Below are positions 20,981-38,130 of a stretch of DNA of 38,413 nucleotides, piece after piece. The stretch is from positions 1-38,413 of IMG/VR virus record IMGVR_UViG_3300042691_021461; one strand, written 5' to 3'. This stretch comes from a virus. Below the pieces are notes generated by a model. It was not told the DNA's origin. It was given only the letters and a program-made list of their open reading frames with translations, and searched no databases. Numbering within the stretch: position 1 is the stretch's first letter; each line of letters begins with the position of its first letter. Made by a program: the position numbers and the translations under genes.

Positions 20981-22018
20981 ATGGCAAGTTTTGATGATAT
21001 TTTATGTCACAAACAACTTCATTCAACTAAAGAAGCATCTACTCCTGAAGCATTGGGAAAGGGAGATAATTGTATCAAGGGGTCCGCATACCTTCAAGGT
21101 CCAGTTCAGTTTGGAAATGATAAGACATTCCACCCAGAAATAGAACCAAAATTTCCTCCCCCAATACCAAAACCAGAAGCGACCGTGATGATCGGTCCCT
21201 TAAAAAACACCGACTCTCCTTTACCGACTGTTTGTGATAATTACAAATTTATTAAGAAATGGGAAATATCTCCATGTGGTGTTACTGGAATTGGTGCAGA
21301 AAAGTATGAAGAGAAACTTGCTAATCCATATTCTTTAGTTGTCAGATCTGGTCCTCACATTAGTAAAAATCAACAATGTGGTTCTGAAGGAATAAAAGAA
21401 TTTTATGGGCCTGCTGCTGCAATGTTTATTGGTGACGTTGATATCTATGGATATACCCGGATAAAGGATAAATTATCTGTATGCGAAAAAGCAGATTTTA
21501 ATAATGATATTGTGATAAGACAAGATGTAATTGTAGGATCTGATGTTGTAGCAAAAGGAAATATAACAGCTAAAGGAGAAGTTAAATCTCAGTGCGGTTC
21601 TCACGTATTATCTGCAAAGAAAAATTTTGATATTCCTCACCCATCAAAAGAAGGTTGGAGACTTACTCACACTTGCGTAGAAGGTCCAGAAGCAGCGGTT
21701 TATATTAGAGGTAGAGTAAAAAATAGTACAGAGATTCATTTACCTTCTTATTGGAAAGATTTTGTTGATATTCAATCAATTACAGTAAACCTGACTCCCA
21801 TAGGTTCTCATCAAGACGTAATTGTTAAAAGGTGGGATGATAAGAAAGTTTATCTCCAGTCAAAAGGTGGAATGCCTATAGATTGTTTTTACTATATTAT
21901 GGCAGAAAGAATTGATACTGAAAAATTAATTCCAGAGTATCAAGGAACTATTGATGATTATCCGGGAGATAATTCTCAAAGGTCTATTGCTGGATATCAC
22001 TACGATGTAAAGGAGTAA
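20981..22018 (+). CDS. tail/baseplate structural protein with FDIPHP-type C-terminal domain
   Basis: This 345-aa protein has a Pro-rich N-terminal part, a central segment with beta-helix-like strands (about 165-210, NDIVIRQDVIVGSDVVAKGN), and a C-terminal domain beginning NFDIPHPSKEGWRLTHTCVE and continuing EGPEAAVYIRGR and IHLPSYW. The same domain ends the next gene, so they are partial paralogues. I have seen this domain at the ends of phage fibre-like proteins but cannot name it securely. It may act as a trimerising or self-processing tip. It lies in the late hub operon, 6 nt after the spike-like gene. Confidence 0.65.
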   Translation: MASFDDILCHKQLHSTKEASTPEALGKGDNCIKGSAYLQGPVQFGNDKTFHPEIEPKFPPPIPKPEATVMIGPLKNTDSPLPTVCDNYKFIKKWEISPCGVTGIGAEKYEEKLANPYSLVVRSGPHISKNQQCGSEGIKEFYGPAAAMFIGDVDIYGYTRIKDKLSVCEKADFNNDIVIRQDVIVGSDVVAKGNITAKGEVKSQCGSHVLSAKKNFDIPHPSKEGWRLTHTCVEGPEAAVYIRGRVKNSTEIHLPSYWKDFVDIQSITVNLTPIGSHQDVIVKRWDDKKVYLQSKGGMPIDCFYYIMAERIDTEKLIPEYQGTIDDYPGDNSQRSIAGYHYDVKE

Positions 22019-22022
22019 TAAA

Positions 22023-23234
22023 ATGACATATTTTCCACCAGATACTCAAAATGGAACTATAGATCCATGGCCACCAACTATCATAATAAGAAATGATAGT
22101 TCATATGAATATGCCAGAAGATATGGAACTCTAGAAGATCCCCCAGATCTGGGAAGTATAGCAACTGGCAAATTTGCAATATTGGGAATTGCTACAAGTC
22201 CAACATTCTTCAAATCAATTGATATCCTCCCCTCAATTGGAAGTAGTGTTACTCAGTATGTTTCTGTTCATTCTGAACCTACTTTATATGATGCTTCTCT
22301 ATTAAAAGTTTGGCATTTTAGGGCGGATTCTTTAATATCAGATGCTGAGTATGAGTTTGGTCACTCTTTCACTAGAGGATCTACAGATAACTCATATGGA
22401 TTTTATTATGGAAGTAATGTTGGAGTTGCTACAACAGGATATTGGGGAGTTTTTATTGATGATGAAGTTTCTAATTATTTTGATGACCTGGTATTAGTTG
22501 GAAGAACTGTGCCAATAAAGATTAATAATACCATTACTCCTATTGTTCAAATATTCAATAATAATGATAAGAGTGGATTATATGTTCAAGGAAACGTGGA
22601 TATTGGGGGAAACTTAAAGGTTGGTGGGTCAGGAGATATTGATTCAACTCTTAATGTTGGTGCCAGATTAACTGTAGAATCTGGTGGATATGGTGTCACA
22701 GGAAATTCAAATATTACAGGAACTTTGAATGTTACTTCAACAGTAACAGCACCAACTTTTGTTGGAAATGTTACTGGAACTGCAAGTGGTAATAAATTAC
22801 TTGCTGCTTTTGATATTCCTCATGTAAAGAAAAAAGGAAAAAGAATTCGCCATATTATTACAGAAGGTCCTGAAGCGGGAATTTATATTAGAGGAAAACT
22901 TAAAGATTCTAATGTGATAGAACTTCCCGAATATTGGGATGGTTTAATTGACCCAGAAACAATCACGGTATCTTTAACTCAAATTGGATATTCGCAAGAT
23001 TTGATTGTCGATAGAATTGAGTGGGGTAAGAAAATTATTATTCGTTCTGGTGTTGGTGCGAATATTGATTGTTATTATGAAGTTTGGGCAGCAAGGTGGA
23101 TTAATCCTATGGATCACAGTGAAGAATTGCATGTTGTTTATGAAGGAGAAACGCCAGATGATTATCCAGGAAATAACGATAGTTTCCTAGTTGGAGGATG
23201 GGACTATGATAAGAGGAATCCTCAATGGTCTTGA
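22023..23234 (+). CDS. fibre-like structural protein with the same C-terminal domain
   Basis: This 403-aa protein has a unique N-terminal part (1-180), a short fibre section (about 185-255, VQGNVDIGGNLKVGG, SNITGTLNVTSTVTAPTFVG) and the C-terminal domain shared with the previous gene (FDIPHVKKKGKRIRHIITEG, EGPEAGIYIRGK, ELPEYW, about 262-400). The ribosome binding site is AAGGAG in the end of the upstream gene. Its stop codon lies within the -35 of an early-type promoter. Probably a short tail fibre or baseplate-attached spike; the receptor role is inference. Confidence 0.65.
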   Translation: MTYFPPDTQNGTIDPWPPTIIIRNDSSYEYARRYGTLEDPPDLGSIATGKFAILGIATSPTFFKSIDILPSIGSSVTQYVSVHSEPTLYDASLLKVWHFRADSLISDAEYEFGHSFTRGSTDNSYGFYYGSNVGVATTGYWGVFIDDEVSNYFDDLVLVGRTVPIKINNTITPIVQIFNNNDKSGLYVQGNVDIGGNLKVGGSGDIDSTLNVGARLTVESGGYGVTGNSNITGTLNVTSTVTAPTFVGNVTGTASGNKLLAAFDIPHVKKKGKRIRHIITEGPEAGIYIRGKLKDSNVIELPEYWDGLIDPETITVSLTQIGYSQDLIVDRIEWGKKIIIRSGVGANIDCYYEVWAARWINPMDHSEELHVVYEGETPDDYPGNNDSFLVGGWDYDKRNPQWS

Positions 23235-33681: not shown

Positions 33682-33707
33682 TATAACGATTTAAAAATGG
33701 AGTGATT

Positions 33708-34367
33708 ATGTCGGTATTAATTGCAATGCCTTGCTATGGTGGTATGGTTAGCGATAAGACTGCAAAGGGTCTTTTTAATCTTGGAAAAGAATTAAGAACT
33801 GCAGGAGTAGATCACGGATTGATTACCATTGCCAACGAAAGTCTTGTCACAAAAGCGAGATCTAGAATTGCCAATTTCTTTATAAACAATACAGAATATG
33901 AATACATTCTGTTTATTGATTCTGATATTGGATTTACTCCAGAAGATGTATTTAAATTGTTTCAAAGTAATAAAGAAATTACTTGTGGAGCATATCCAAT
34001 GAAGGGTATTCCTCTTCGTTATAATTATAATATCTCTAAACCAGAGGTGAAAGATGGTGATCTAATTAAGATTGAAAACATTGGATTTGGATTTGCTCTG
34101 ATTCATCGTAAGGTTTTTGAGAGTATTATCTCTAAATATGGAGAAGAGTTAAAATATTATCCACCAACGAATAATAGTTCTTATCCTCCTACAGAAAAAG
34201 AATATCATAATTCTTATCATTATTTCTTAGAATTGAAAAAAGATATGAACTATCTACCAGAAGATTTTTCATTTTTTGAAAGAGCAGGAAGCGTTGGATA
34301 TGATGCTTGGTTAAATACTACTATAAGATTGGCACACGTCGGTTCTCACGTATATCAGGAAGAGTAA
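33708..34367 (+). CDS. GT-A type glycosyltransferase
   Basis: The frame opens at GTG 33702, but ATG 33708 follows GGAG (33699-33702) at proper spacing, giving 219 aa. It begins MSVLIAMPCYGGMVSDKTAK, with ANESLVTKARSRIANFF and then YILFIDSDIGF, where D71-S72-D73 is the DXD metal/nucleotide-sugar motif of GT-A enzymes. Later GFGFALIHRKVFESI and EDFSFFERAGSVGYD are acceptor-side features. It probably adds a sugar to a phage structural protein, DNA base or host surface glycan; its place between fibre genes favours modification of fibres or their receptor, an inference. Ends 4 nt before the next gene. Confidence 0.82.
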   Translation: MSVLIAMPCYGGMVSDKTAKGLFNLGKELRTAGVDHGLITIANESLVTKARSRIANFFINNTEYEYILFIDSDIGFTPEDVFKLFQSNKEITCGAYPMKGIPLRYNYNISKPEVKDGDLIKIENIGFGFALIHRKVFESIISKYGEELKYYPPTNNSSYPPTEKEYHNSYHYFLELKKDMNYLPEDFSFFERAGSVGYDAWLNTTIRLAHVGSHVYQEE

Positions 34368-34371
34368 TTAA

Positions 34372-36246
34372 ATGGCAAGCGGAGTTTTCGGTCTTAAGAA
34401 GATTTACAAAAGACAAGTTGAAAATGTAATTAATAACAACTTCAACAGTTGGACTGAAGACTTCACTGATGCTTATATTATTGCCGGAAATAGGCCATCA
34501 AATGCCTCCCAAACATCTATAATAAAATACTCATACTTTTCTAACTCCAGTGTTATTCTTCCCTCAGCATCTAATATTTCTCCCACTTGTGGGTTATCTA
34601 ATGCATTTGGAGTATCAAATGATACCTATGGGTATTATGCTGCAGGAACAAATAGTAATAGTAATGTAGTATCAAGACTTGATTTTTCTACAGACCTATC
34701 ATCTTTACCAGGCAAAAATTTACCAACGGTTGTTGATTATGGTGGGTCAATATCAAGAATTGATTTTGGATATGGTTATTTTGTTGGTGGACAAAATGGA
34801 ACACTACCAAATCCAAATGAAATTTCAACAATTACAAGATTAGATTTTGCAACAGAAACTATATCTCCTACAACAAATCTTCCCACATCCTTATTCCAAA
34901 TAAGGGCATTCAATGGTTCTACTTATGGATATGCAATAGGAGGAACTGATCCTACCAATACAGCAAAAAATACAATTTATCGTTTAGATTTTTCAAATGA
35001 TACTTTGGCAATTTCTCTTCCATCCAAAAATTTTGCTAGTAATAGATCAGGATCTTGTGTTAATGAAAGTCCACTGTATGGGTATGCAGTTTCGGGGCAA
35101 AATGTAAGTACTATAGAGCGTCTTGATTTTGCTTCAGAAACAGTTTCTGCATTATCTTCACTATCAGCAGGACCTGGATCTAGTGGATCTTATTTCTCAT
35201 CTTTATCTGATGGATATGTACTAGCAAATGCTGCTTCTGGCGATTTTTCTAGATTAGATTTTTCCAATGAAACTGTACAACTTTCTCTTGGAATTGTTGA
35301 AGCCAGAGAAAAATCATCTTGTGTGAGTGCCAGACATAAAACATACAATAAAAATACAAATACTTTTATGTATGCAAACAGAGGCACCCAAGGTGGGGAA
35401 ATAGATAAGTTGTCCTATCAAACAGAAACCTGGACAACTAACCTTGATGCTACTGCCCAAGAACAATCGGAAACAAGTGGAGCATCAACAAATTCTTATG
35501 GGTATATTTTTGGTGGGAAAAAGGGAACCGGAACAACTACATTGATTTCAAGATTGGATTTTTCAAGTGATACTCTTACTTCTGGAGCAAAAGAGGATAA
35601 GTCTAAACTTTCTATAATTCTCCCTTCCACCTCATCTACAACACAATTTGGAACAACCCAAACAAATTCTTATGCATACATAATTGGTGGATCAAATCCA
35701 GGATCTTCATCTATTTGGAGAATGGATTTTTCAACGGATAGTCTTGTTCCAAGTGGAATTTATCCACAATCAAGAACAAATATACGTTCGGTAAAAAGTG
35801 CAACAACATCATATCTTAATTTTGGTGGCGGTTCTATAAGTACAATAATGCGATTAAATTTTTCATCAGAAACTCTAAGTACATCACCGACGAATTATCC
35901 TATTGCTCTTATTCAAGACGTGGCTGCAACTGCAACTTCTGCAAATTATTCTTATGGGTATTTTCTGGGTGGTCGTAATCCTGGAGCATCTCCAAATGTT
36001 GTCAGTTCAATTTATAGATTAGATTTTACAAACGAAACATTTACTCTATCTTCAAATAGTGTTTCGAGTAGTGGTAATAGTATTGGAGGATATGCCTATA
36101 ATGATATGTATGGATATTTTAATGTATTACAAAGTGGACAATCTTCTTTATTCCGAATGGATTTTGGGACAGAATTACTTACGACACAAGCACCATCTCC
36201 ATCAAACAGACAAAGCGGTGTTGCTTACACTAATTCAAATGTATAA
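34372..36246 (+). CDS. kelch-like repeat tail protein, divergent copy (624 aa, 12 repeats)
   Basis: After a head piece (MASGVFGLKKIYKRQVENVI, NNNFNSWTE) shared with the second kelch-like gene, the protein consists of about 12 imperfect repeats of 44-58 residues. Each has an aromatic-glycine strand (YGYxxGG), a variable loop and the strand RLDFSxET. This is the layout of kelch-type beta-propeller blades; 12 blades could make two six-bladed or unequal propellers. Repeats are much more diverged than in the next protein. Variable loops suit ligand or receptor binding. It is in the fibre unit 4 nt after the glycosyltransferase. Confidence 0.75.
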   Translation: MASGVFGLKKIYKRQVENVINNNFNSWTEDFTDAYIIAGNRPSNASQTSIIKYSYFSNSSVILPSASNISPTCGLSNAFGVSNDTYGYYAAGTNSNSNVVSRLDFSTDLSSLPGKNLPTVVDYGGSISRIDFGYGYFVGGQNGTLPNPNEISTITRLDFATETISPTTNLPTSLFQIRAFNGSTYGYAIGGTDPTNTAKNTIYRLDFSNDTLAISLPSKNFASNRSGSCVNESPLYGYAVSGQNVSTIERLDFASETVSALSSLSAGPGSSGSYFSSLSDGYVLANAASGDFSRLDFSNETVQLSLGIVEAREKSSCVSARHKTYNKNTNTFMYANRGTQGGEIDKLSYQTETWTTNLDATAQEQSETSGASTNSYGYIFGGKKGTGTTTLISRLDFSSDTLTSGAKEDKSKLSIILPSTSSTTQFGTTQTNSYAYIIGGSNPGSSSIWRMDFSTDSLVPSGIYPQSRTNIRSVKSATTSYLNFGGGSISTIMRLNFSSETLSTSPTNYPIALIQDVAATATSANYSYGYFLGGRNPGASPNVVSSIYRLDFTNETFTLSSNSVSSSGNSIGGYAYNDMYGYFNVLQSGQSSLFRMDFGTELLTTQAPSPSNRQSGVAYTNSNV

Positions 36247-36253
36247 TCAAATG

Positions 36254-36261
36254 AATAAATA
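36254..36261 (+). promoter_or_regulatory. late promoter octamer AATAAATA for the second kelch-like gene
   Basis: AATAAATA just after the first kelch-like gene would start transcripts near 36267, leaving a 37-nt leader before ATG 36304. The leader holds GGAGT-TAT-ACTCC (36268-36280), a small hairpin. Confidence 0.6.
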
Positions 36262-36303
36262 TAAAAAGGAGTTATACTCCAAAGAATTCTATATTGAAAT
36301 CTA

Positions 36304-38130
36304 ATGGCACAAGGAGTATTTTCGCTACTGGAAGTTAGGTCAGAGCAAGTTAGTAATGTAGCAAATAATAACTTTTCTTCTTGGCCTGAAGGTGCTACTT
36401 ATGGTTATTATGGGGGTGGTGCTGAAGTTCCTACTCGTATAAACACCATTACCCGTATTGATTTCTCTAATGAAACTATCAGTGACCCTGGCAAGAACTT
36501 ACCTACAATAAGAAGTTCTCCGACAGCATCTTCAAGTAGTTCCTATGGTTACTTTGGTGGAGGTCTAACTGGTCCTACTACTTACTTAAACACCATTACT
36601 CGTATTGATTTCTCTAATGAAATAGTTAGTAATCCTGGTAATAACTTTCCTTCAACAAGAGCATCATTTGCAGCAGTCTCAAATAGTTTTTATGGTTATT
36701 TTGGGGGTAGCTCCACGTTTGTTGATATAAACACCATTACCCGTATTGATTTCTCTAATGAAACTATCAGTGACCCTGGCAAGAACTTACCTGCAGAAAC
36801 AAGTAGACTTGCATCAGTCTCAAGCAGTTCTTATGGTTACTTTGGTGGTGGATTTTCTCCTACTTCTCCTACTACTGCCGTAAACACTATCAGTCGCCTT
36901 GATTTTTCTAATGAAACAGTTAGTAATCCTGGCAAGAACTTTTCTTCGACAAAAAGCGAATTTGCAGGAACCTCAAGTAGTTCTTATGGTTACTTTGGCG
37001 GTGGTTCTGGTTCTATAAGCACTATCACCCGTCTTGATTTTTCTAATGAAACAGTTAGTGATCCGGGAAAGAATTTGCCTTCAGTAAGAGAAGATATTGC
37101 AACATCCCAAAATAATTCTTATGGTTATTTTGGTGGTGGTTTTAGTCCCGCCCAAATAAACATAATCAGTCGTCTTGATTTTTCCAATGAAACCGTTAGT
37201 GATCCAGGAAAGAATTTGCCTTCAGCAAGAAATAATTTAACAGCACTCTCTGGAGGAGCATCTACGTTTAGATTGAATAAAAGTTATGTATATTTTGGTG
37301 GCGGAGATAATTTAGGACTTAATGTTGTCAAATTGGATGTTTTTTCTGAAACAACGTCAACACTTTTGAGTACTCTTGATCAAAGTAAAGAAGGATATTC
37401 TGCAGCATCAAGCAATTTTTATGGATATTTTGCTGGAGGTGGTCCGTCTTTAATTAGTACAGTTAATCGTTTAGATTTTTCAAACGATTCAATTAGTTTG
37501 CCAGGAAACAATTTTCCTTCAAATAGAGGTTTTGTTGGAGCAACAGCAAGTAATTCTTATGTATATTTTGGTGGGGGAAATAATAACCTTAATACAGTTG
37601 TTCGTTTAGATTTTTCAAACGATTCAATCAGTTTGCCAGGAAAAAATTTATCCGCATCTAGGGGATCTTTGGCTACAGTATTTAATTCTTCTTATGGTTA
37701 TTATTGTGGAGGACAGATTCCATCGGGATCAACTACTATCAATACCATTGATAGGATTGATTTTTCAAATGAAACTACGAGTCTTCCTGGAAACAATTTA
37801 CCTGTGCAAACTTTTGATCTTGGGGCAGCATCAAGTAATTCCTATGGATATTTTGCAGGTGGAGATGGAACTCCATTAAATACAAACTTAGTAAGTCGTC
37901 TTGATTTTTCAAACGAAACCTTAAGTCTTCCTGGAAAAAATTTAGCAGTAGCAAAAGATGGATTATCTGGTTCTTCTGGCGGTACTAATTATGCTTATTT
38001 TTCTGGAAGTGTCACTCCAAGTTCATCACTGATACAAAGATTGGATTTTTCTACCGAAAGTATAATTGATATTTCGGAAAGATTTCCGATTGCTGGGGGG
38101 CATATGGGAGCAACTTCAAACTCAAACTAA
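36304..38130 (+). CDS. kelch-like repeat tail protein, regular copy (608 aa, 12 repeats)
   Basis: The head piece (MAQGVFSLLEVRSEQVSNVA, NNNFSSWPE) is followed by 12 repeats of 45-55 residues of the form SYGYFGGG - loop - NTITRLDFSNETVSDPGKNLPS - loop. Only repeat 7 (DNLGLNVVKLDVFSETTST) departs strongly from the pattern. The number equals that of the neighbouring paralogue. Strand and glycine placement is as in kelch propellers. Repeats 1 and 3 share a 66-bp identical DNA stretch, and codon choice changes between the first and later repeats, so the gene looks mosaic. A host-recognition or virion surface role is inferred. Confidence 0.78.
   Translation: MAQGVFSLLEVRSEQVSNVANNNFSSWPEGATYGYYGGGAEVPTRINTITRIDFSNETISDPGKNLPTIRSSPTASSSSSYGYFGGGLTGPTTYLNTITRIDFSNEIVSNPGNNFPSTRASFAAVSNSFYGYFGGSSTFVDINTITRIDFSNETISDPGKNLPAETSRLASVSSSSYGYFGGGFSPTSPTTAVNTISRLDFSNETVSNPGKNFSSTKSEFAGTSSSSYGYFGGGSGSISTITRLDFSNETVSDPGKNLPSVREDIATSQNNSYGYFGGGFSPAQINIISRLDFSNETVSDPGKNLPSARNNLTALSGGASTFRLNKSYVYFGGGDNLGLNVVKLDVFSETTSTLLSTLDQSKEGYSAASSNFYGYFAGGGPSLISTVNRLDFSNDSISLPGNNFPSNRGFVGATASNSYVYFGGGNNNLNTVVRLDFSNDSISLPGKNLSASRGSLATVFNSSYGYYCGGQIPSGSTTINTIDRIDFSNETTSLPGNNLPVQTFDLGAASSNSYGYFAGGDGTPLNTNLVSRLDFSNETLSLPGKNLAVAKDGLSGSSGGTNYAYFSGSVTPSSSLIQRLDFSTESIIDISERFPIAGGHMGATSNSN
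36439..36792 (+). repeat. 66-bp identical direct repeat within the kelch-like gene
   Basis: Copies at 36439-36504 and 36727-36792 (start ATAAACACCATTACCCGTAT) are identical over 66 bp and in the same frame, covering the RIDFSNETISDPGKNLP part of repeats 1 and 3. The intervening repeat 2 differs. Recent conversion or duplication between blades explains this. Confidence 0.85.

Follow-up and report, generated by a model that had tools for sequence, protein, structure and literature searches.

Near the end of the window, i.e., the whole stretch of 38,413 nucleotides analysed here, two adjacent genes encode kelch-like proteins, referred to below as A and B. An earlier note, made from the sequence alone, described them as tandem paralogues that share a head piece and RLDFSxET blades and have 12 repeats each, nearly regular in one protein and strongly diverged in the other. 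It proposed that this constant number reflects a closed structure, such as two six-bladed propellers, with loops that are free to vary for recognition. The locus thus raises the question of what fixes the number of blades, and of what such proteins do in a virus.

Two paralogous kelch proteins and their predicted fold

Both open reading frames are intact and lie next to each other in the same direction. Protein A (34372..36246, + strand) comprises 624 aa and protein B (36304..38130, + strand) 608 aa. They are paralogues, with 33-35% identity across ~620 aa (BLASTP, E 1e-59 to 1e-66) and a head piece in common (MASGVFGLKKIYKRQVENV / MAQGVFSLLEVRSEQVSNV). Both match phrog_19111. In Pfam, A is matched by Kelch_1 (PF01344, 33.4 bits, cut-off 20.1) and by PF13415 (22.5 bits, cut-off 22), and B by the kelch family PF24681 (62.6 bits, cut-off 50). 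Each protein contains 12 motifs of the RLDFSxET type, at a spacing of 44-56 aa in A and 45-53 aa in B. A strict form of the pattern occurs 11 times per protein, whereas 2000 shuffles gave 0.02 occurrences on average and never more than 1. A and B each open with a half blade (YGYxGGG in B) and stop just short of the next YGY; therefore, the 12 motifs represent 12 complete blades, assigned as 6+6 in both proteins. The mean blade-to-blade identity is 49.7% in B and 32.9% in A; that is, the blades of B are the more regular and those of A are strongly diverged. Within the blade consensus, YGYFGGG is nearly invariant and the Trp that is classic in kelch repeats has no counterpart there; small and polar residues are abundant in the BC loops.

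The structure of B was predicted with AlphaFold2 (model m4ef76124b4fa) from an alignment of 82 twelve-bladed rows; an alignment of 14 rows gave a pLDDT of only 43. The resulting model has a mean pLDDT of 86.7 and a pTM of 0.56, and consists of a helix at residues 8-20 followed by repeated four-stranded blades. The helix (36325..36363, + strand), which we propose to be the docking element, is modelled at low confidence (pLDDT 42-58), and its sequence is type-specific across phages. Residues 29-321 are predicted to form a closed six-bladed kelch ring of four-stranded blades, and VIA-align superimposes them on Keap1 (1x2j) with Z 40.5 and an rmsd of 2.0 Å over 282 residues, at a sequence identity of only ~14%, and on the designed six-bladed protein SAKe6 (7pvp) with Z 41.2 and an rmsd of 1.6 Å. 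We annotate this first module at aa 29-316 (36388..37251, + strand). It is followed by a linker at aa 317-326 (GGASTFRLNK; 37252..37281, + strand), which is placed on the basis of loop length and of the recombination breakpoints that cluster here in relatives.

The model then predicts a second set of six blades, i.e., module 2 at aa 327-608 (37282..38127, + strand), with DSSP strands from 328 to 605 and a pLDDT mostly of 78-93; the fold of this module was not matched separately. The strand list of the model suggests that ring 1 is closed by strand 313-317, just before the linker, and ring 2, from residue 328 onwards, by the C-terminal strand 602-605; the closure of ring 2 is an inference. The mutual placement of the two rings is uncertain, because the pTM is 0.56. 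Tandem-propeller constructs of LRP6 could be aligned with the model over its full length, but poorly (TM 0.33). Fold matches in BFVD include kelch proteins of jumbo phages; B alone matched no PDB entry by sequence. For A, which has no model of its own, the two propellers are inferred from motif positions and from homology to B: module 1 at aa 34-319 (34471..35328, + strand), with six RLDF-type motifs; a linker at aa 320-331 (ARHKTYNKNTNT; 35329..35364, + strand), marked, like those of the homologues, by additional residues ahead of the B strand of blade 6; and module 2 at aa 332-624 (35365..36243, + strand), placed by motif positions.

The descriptive claims of the earlier note therefore held, namely the tandem paralogues with a common head piece and RLDFSxET blades (BLASTP, motif scan and Pfam), the 12 repeats in each protein, and the one near-regular and one diverged set. 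The propeller fold held for B, by prediction, while A lay outside the modelling; the proposal of two six-bladed propellers per protein is supported, in that the model of B has a closed first ring, followed by six further blades.

Blade number changes in steps of six

An alignment search of IMG/VR yielded 177 relatives, the best 80 of which, representing 75 loci, were kept. Removal of near-duplicates at 90% identity gave 107 proteins with a head and a complete 3′ end. Three of these, two ORFs of phage S-SKS1 and one of locus L035, are interrupted by frameshifts and were excluded, leaving 104 intact proteins. Four counts were corrected by hand reading: 12 blades for A, 6+6 for L083, and 6+6 plus a C-terminal extension for L051 and L062. 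The extension of L051 is MAM-like.

Among these 104 non-redundant homologues, 12 blades are found in 86, 18 in nine and 24 in three; that is, 98 of 104 fit a step of six. The six misfits have 17 and 16 blades (both in L009), 11 (L006), 10 (L014 and L077) and 4 (L005). All six lack whole blades and, apart from L005, each of them shortens one module, the layouts being 6+5+6, 6+4+6, 5+6, 6+4 and 4+6. The stretch preceding the YGYF strand is 16 aa long in nearly all blades and 25.4 aa on average at blade 6; in 77 of 82 twelve-bladed proteins, it is longer at blade 6 than at any other blade. All nine proteins with 18 blades have a long stretch at both blade 6 and blade 12, and all three with 24 blades have a further one at blade 18. 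In the 18-bladed proteins, the first linker (QINR..FKGSPKYTNWPESATTGY) looks like a copy of the head region. A head-motif scan, which is independent of blade sequence, detected five new complete genes (L086, two in L092, L117 and L089), and all five have 12 blades, the count for L089 having been set by hand reading.

These data demonstrate that the constant is six blades per module, not twelve per protein. The claim of a constant number thus held only in part: there is no free variation (98 of 104 proteins at 12, 18 or 24, and five of five new genes at 12), but the unit is six, relatives with 18 and 24 blades exist, and so do a few modules of four or five. The steps of six, seen across ~100 natural proteins, are a clear sign from evolution that the number of repeats is constrained by the closure of the ring.

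Whether the odd counts are real or arise from assembly collapse of near-identical repeats we leave undecided. Long internal exact repeats in L014 (128 nt), L077 (120 nt) and L009 (86 nt) would permit a collapse, whereas those in L006 (42 nt) and L005 (32 nt) are unremarkable relative to regular genes (median 54 nt). A 17-bladed protein of 900 aa recurs in contigs from three metagenomes. According to a long-read study, kelch repeats are nine times commoner in long reads than in assemblies (PMC9238414).

Three genes per cluster, variable loops and exchanged propellers

Complete clusters contain three paralogues, one for each of three head types, i.e., type I (GVFGLxxVYKxQ), type II (FSLxEVRxEQ) and type III (GDVFGLxxVYDxQ). 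The head of A is of type I and that of B of type II. The order of heads is I-II-III in 22 loci and I-III-II in 13. No locus has a duplicated type except the near-identical L062 and L063, in which automatic typing missed one head and called two as type I. The third gene of the present set lies just past the end of the window: over its last 12,920 bases, the window has the same sequence as the contig of L003, which carries the type III gene at L003:15085-17040.

The kelch genes are located directly downstream of tail-fibre and baseplate genes, and the window encodes, upstream of them, tail tube, baseplate hub, baseplate wedge and tail fibre. In the clusters examined, a glycosyltransferase-like gene (phrog_1574; 33702..34367, + strand, in the window) directly precedes the type I gene, and a 284-298-aa protein with a weak match to phrog_1409 precedes the type III gene; the type II gene is preceded by a sulfotransferase in many clusters, though not in all. 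Further genes nearby encode a glycosyltransferase/FkbM protein and a 2OG-Fe(II) oxygenase. In long records, of up to 219 kb, all kelch matches fall within the cluster, and the idea of silent cassettes elsewhere in the genome was rejected for that reason. Every head-bearing ORF detected by DNA pattern had kelch blades, i.e., no head was found on a non-kelch body, in a search that covered two head types with one degenerate pattern each and was not exhaustive. A single scan of genome_contigs revealed no bacterial homologues.

The variation between close relatives was assessed in 323 blade pairs that share 85-99.9% of their nucleotides. Per site, the BC loop shows 0.39 amino-acid differences and the DA loop 0.22, with 0.52 at two positions of the latter; the values fall to ~0.10 in the AB turn and to 0.02-0.035 in strands B and C. 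The ligand-binding face of kelch domains is made up of the BC and DA loops (PMC6650413, PMC6720452). The concentration of changes in these two loops supports the claim that loops are free to vary; that they vary for recognition remains an inference, without binding data. A diversity-generating retroelement was considered as the origin of this variation and rejected: no match to RVT_1, i.e., no reverse transcriptase, was found in eight long records of up to 219 kb, some of them fragments, and the variable codons show no clear adenine-derived pattern.

Heads are 58% identical within a type across phages, as compared with 44% between types in different phages. The bodies show the reverse, with 51.6% identity among the three paralogues of one phage and 44.7% among same-type genes of different phages. 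Because bodies are closer within a phage than within a type, exchange among the three genes is suggested. In strains whose other neighbouring proteins are ~97-99% identical, same-type kelch proteins are often 40-75% identical; in L047 and L048, for example, the neighbours share 97.8% and the type III kelch proteins 48%. Between L030 and L049, the head and blades 1-5 of the type II protein are 98-100% identical and the next six blades 37-57% (amino acids), while types I and III are both 100% identical. L036 and L030 show a module mosaic of this kind in all three genes. The type II proteins of L048 and L029 form the reverse mosaic, with 99% identity in module 2 and 50% in module 1; thus, the type II protein of L048 combines the first module of L030 with the second of L029. 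Mosaics also join different types, namely L061 type I with L053 type III, L041 type II with L020 type III, and L020 type II with its own type III. Change points fitted to 27 mosaic pairs fall in the blade-6 segment in 18 pairs, in the head in six, in blade 9 in two and in blade 5 in one. These pairs are not all independent, and by eye they correspond to about a dozen events at the linker. Since most breakpoints are at the inter-propeller linker, we conclude that whole propellers are exchanged; this exchange, like the predicted fold, is well supported.

A proposed role in host recognition

Our preferred reading is that A and B are likely (probability about 0.7) two of three tail-attached host-recognition adhesins in a marine T4-like phage, which is probably a cyanophage related to Synechococcus phage S-SKS1 (Llyrvirus). 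Each adhesin would consist of a short helical head of type I, II or III and a string of complete six-bladed kelch propellers, two in A and B and three or four in some relatives. The head would dock the protein onto the tail, and the BC and DA loops of each ring would form a ligand face that binds host surface molecules. Diversity may then be generated at two levels, by point changes and variation in length within the BC and DA loops, and by replacement of whole propellers through homologous recombination at the conserved inter-propeller linker, also between the three paralogues. The genes meet criteria for receptor-binding proteins in that they lie within the tail and baseplate gene block and are more variable than their neighbours between close relatives. 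However, location in the virion is inferred from gene order, without proteomics; docking by the head is likewise an inference; and receptor binding is inferred from gene position and the pattern of variation. A weak point is that the head is poorly modelled in B. The nearby glycosyltransferase, sulfotransferase and 2OG-oxygenase genes would also fit modification of the host surface or of the phage particle, which counts against an adhesin.

Other readings can be weighed against the same data. The proteins might decorate the particle, or the surface of head or tail, and bind glycans or particles in a general manner, e.g., for staying near cells, rather than a specific receptor. Kelch proteins of large phages are indeed known, one of them virion-borne in phage CBB without a proven receptor role (PMC5259590), and BC loops rich in small and polar residues would suit such binding. 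We nevertheless consider this unlikely, in that the kelch genes adjoin tail-fibre genes, and strong divergence between strains with ~97-99% identical neighbours, together with changes on one face, is better explained by selected, specific recognition. Still less probable is a function as intracellular protein-binding scaffolds, similar to the substrate receptors Keap1/KLHL, that would block host defence or hold the adjacent glycosyl- and sulfotransferases. In support, this fold occurs in kelch domains that act as substrate receptors inside cells, and modifying enzymes are encoded between the kelch genes; yet the genes lie within a structural gene block, the three paralogues each have their own conserved head, and the ligand face diverges fast between close strains.

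As to architecture, a single closed ring of twelve blades, or a linear solenoid, can be set aside almost entirely. Twelve is the commonest count, and a half blade at the start with its complement at the end would, taken alone, fit a twelve-blade closure as well. Against this, a linker follows every sixth blade, forms with 18 and 24 blades exist, and residues 29-321 of the B model align with complete six-bladed domains; the single twelve-bladed ring was rejected on these grounds.

A bolder version of the adhesin reading is that every phage displays six or more rings that can be exchanged independently, borne on three adhesins that differ in their heads; this would amount to combinatorial host recognition, the closed rings being the units of recombination between strains and among the three genes. 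This is tentative, and on balance we lean slightly against it. If the adhesin reading is true, marine phages would have a route to fast change of host recognition without retroelement mutagenesis, in which the scaffold is kept, one face is varied and whole rings are swapped at a fixed joint. The analysis suggests what proteins that so far carry only the label "hypothetical" may do, and the module alleles it defines lend themselves to comparison with host range.

As far as the open-licence literature was searched, propeller-bearing receptor-binding proteins (phi11) and kelch proteins of large phages are already known, and no description was found of kelch strings in steps of six, the three-head set or ring exchange, which appear to be new. 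Among known proteins, those of the S-SKS1 genes SWZG_00001/00291, 00287 and 00289 (phrog_19111) belong to the same family, have the three heads and much the same gene neighbourhood, and in the best place are 49% identical to B; their only annotation is "hypothetical", and as deposited, one gene runs across the two ends of the record and the other two are frameshifted. The BTB-Kelch proteins Keap1, KLHL20 and KLHL12 have the same six-bladed fold (Z ~40), with BC and DA loops on one face, but they carry a single ring in a eukaryotic E3 adaptor, whereas the phage proteins have two to four rings, no BTB domain and the low sequence identity noted above. The receptor-binding protein of S. aureus phage phi11 resembles the proposed adhesins in having beta-propellers that are proposed to hold a glycan-binding cavity, and an N-terminal helical stem (PMC4901313); it differs in having one five-bladed, non-kelch propeller per chain, in a homotrimer with a C-terminal tower. 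Kelch-type propellers are also found in the jumbo tailed phages CBB, PS119XW and BcepSaruman, and CBB_552 is present in the virion (PMC5259590), but no sequence relation was detected (tblastn, E 1e-5), and the relevant passage on CBB describes neither the head trio nor the steps of six. Mosaic tail fibres and gp38-type adhesins of T-even phages exchange host-recognition parts by recombination at short conserved stretches. These have other folds; in the kelch proteins, the exchanged unit is a whole closed propeller, with the crossover at the linker between rings.

Enzyme genes among the kelch genes

The three kelch genes are interleaved with genes for a sulfotransferase, a glycosyltransferase/FkbM methyltransferase and a 2OG-Fe(II) oxygenase (homologous loci L030:9165-9992, L003:12638-14203 and L003:17064-17726). 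This arrangement suggests modification of virion or host glycans. In several relatives a sulfotransferase gene lies ahead of the type II kelch gene, without a counterpart in the window at 36246-36304. This short gap, between kelch genes A and B, can be read as NKYKKELYSKEFYIEI, which bears a faint likeness to the C-terminus of the relatives' sulfotransferase; it may be a remnant of that gene.

Paralogues and broken genes

Two neighbouring genes at 20981-23234 of the window, each matching phrog_17490/28536 (unknown function), form a second pair of paralogues in tandem besides the kelch pair; they lie within the tail region. In the deposited genome of Synechococcus phage S-SKS1 (HQ633071.1; L001:3-1226, L002:33810-39955), none of the three kelch genes is whole: the record ends cut one of them in two, and frameshifts interrupt the other two, conceivably sequencing errors within the repeats.

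Heads and C-terminal domains

At locus L009:1334-12649, the latter half of the head, of the EGLSLNIPGLL type, is unusual and common to all three kelch proteins. This half therefore goes with the phage, and it is the first 15 residues that go with the type. Some relatives carry an added C-terminal domain beyond the second propeller (L051:2793-5342, L062:8603-11194, L010:1577-4168), that of L051 matching MAM (PF00629).
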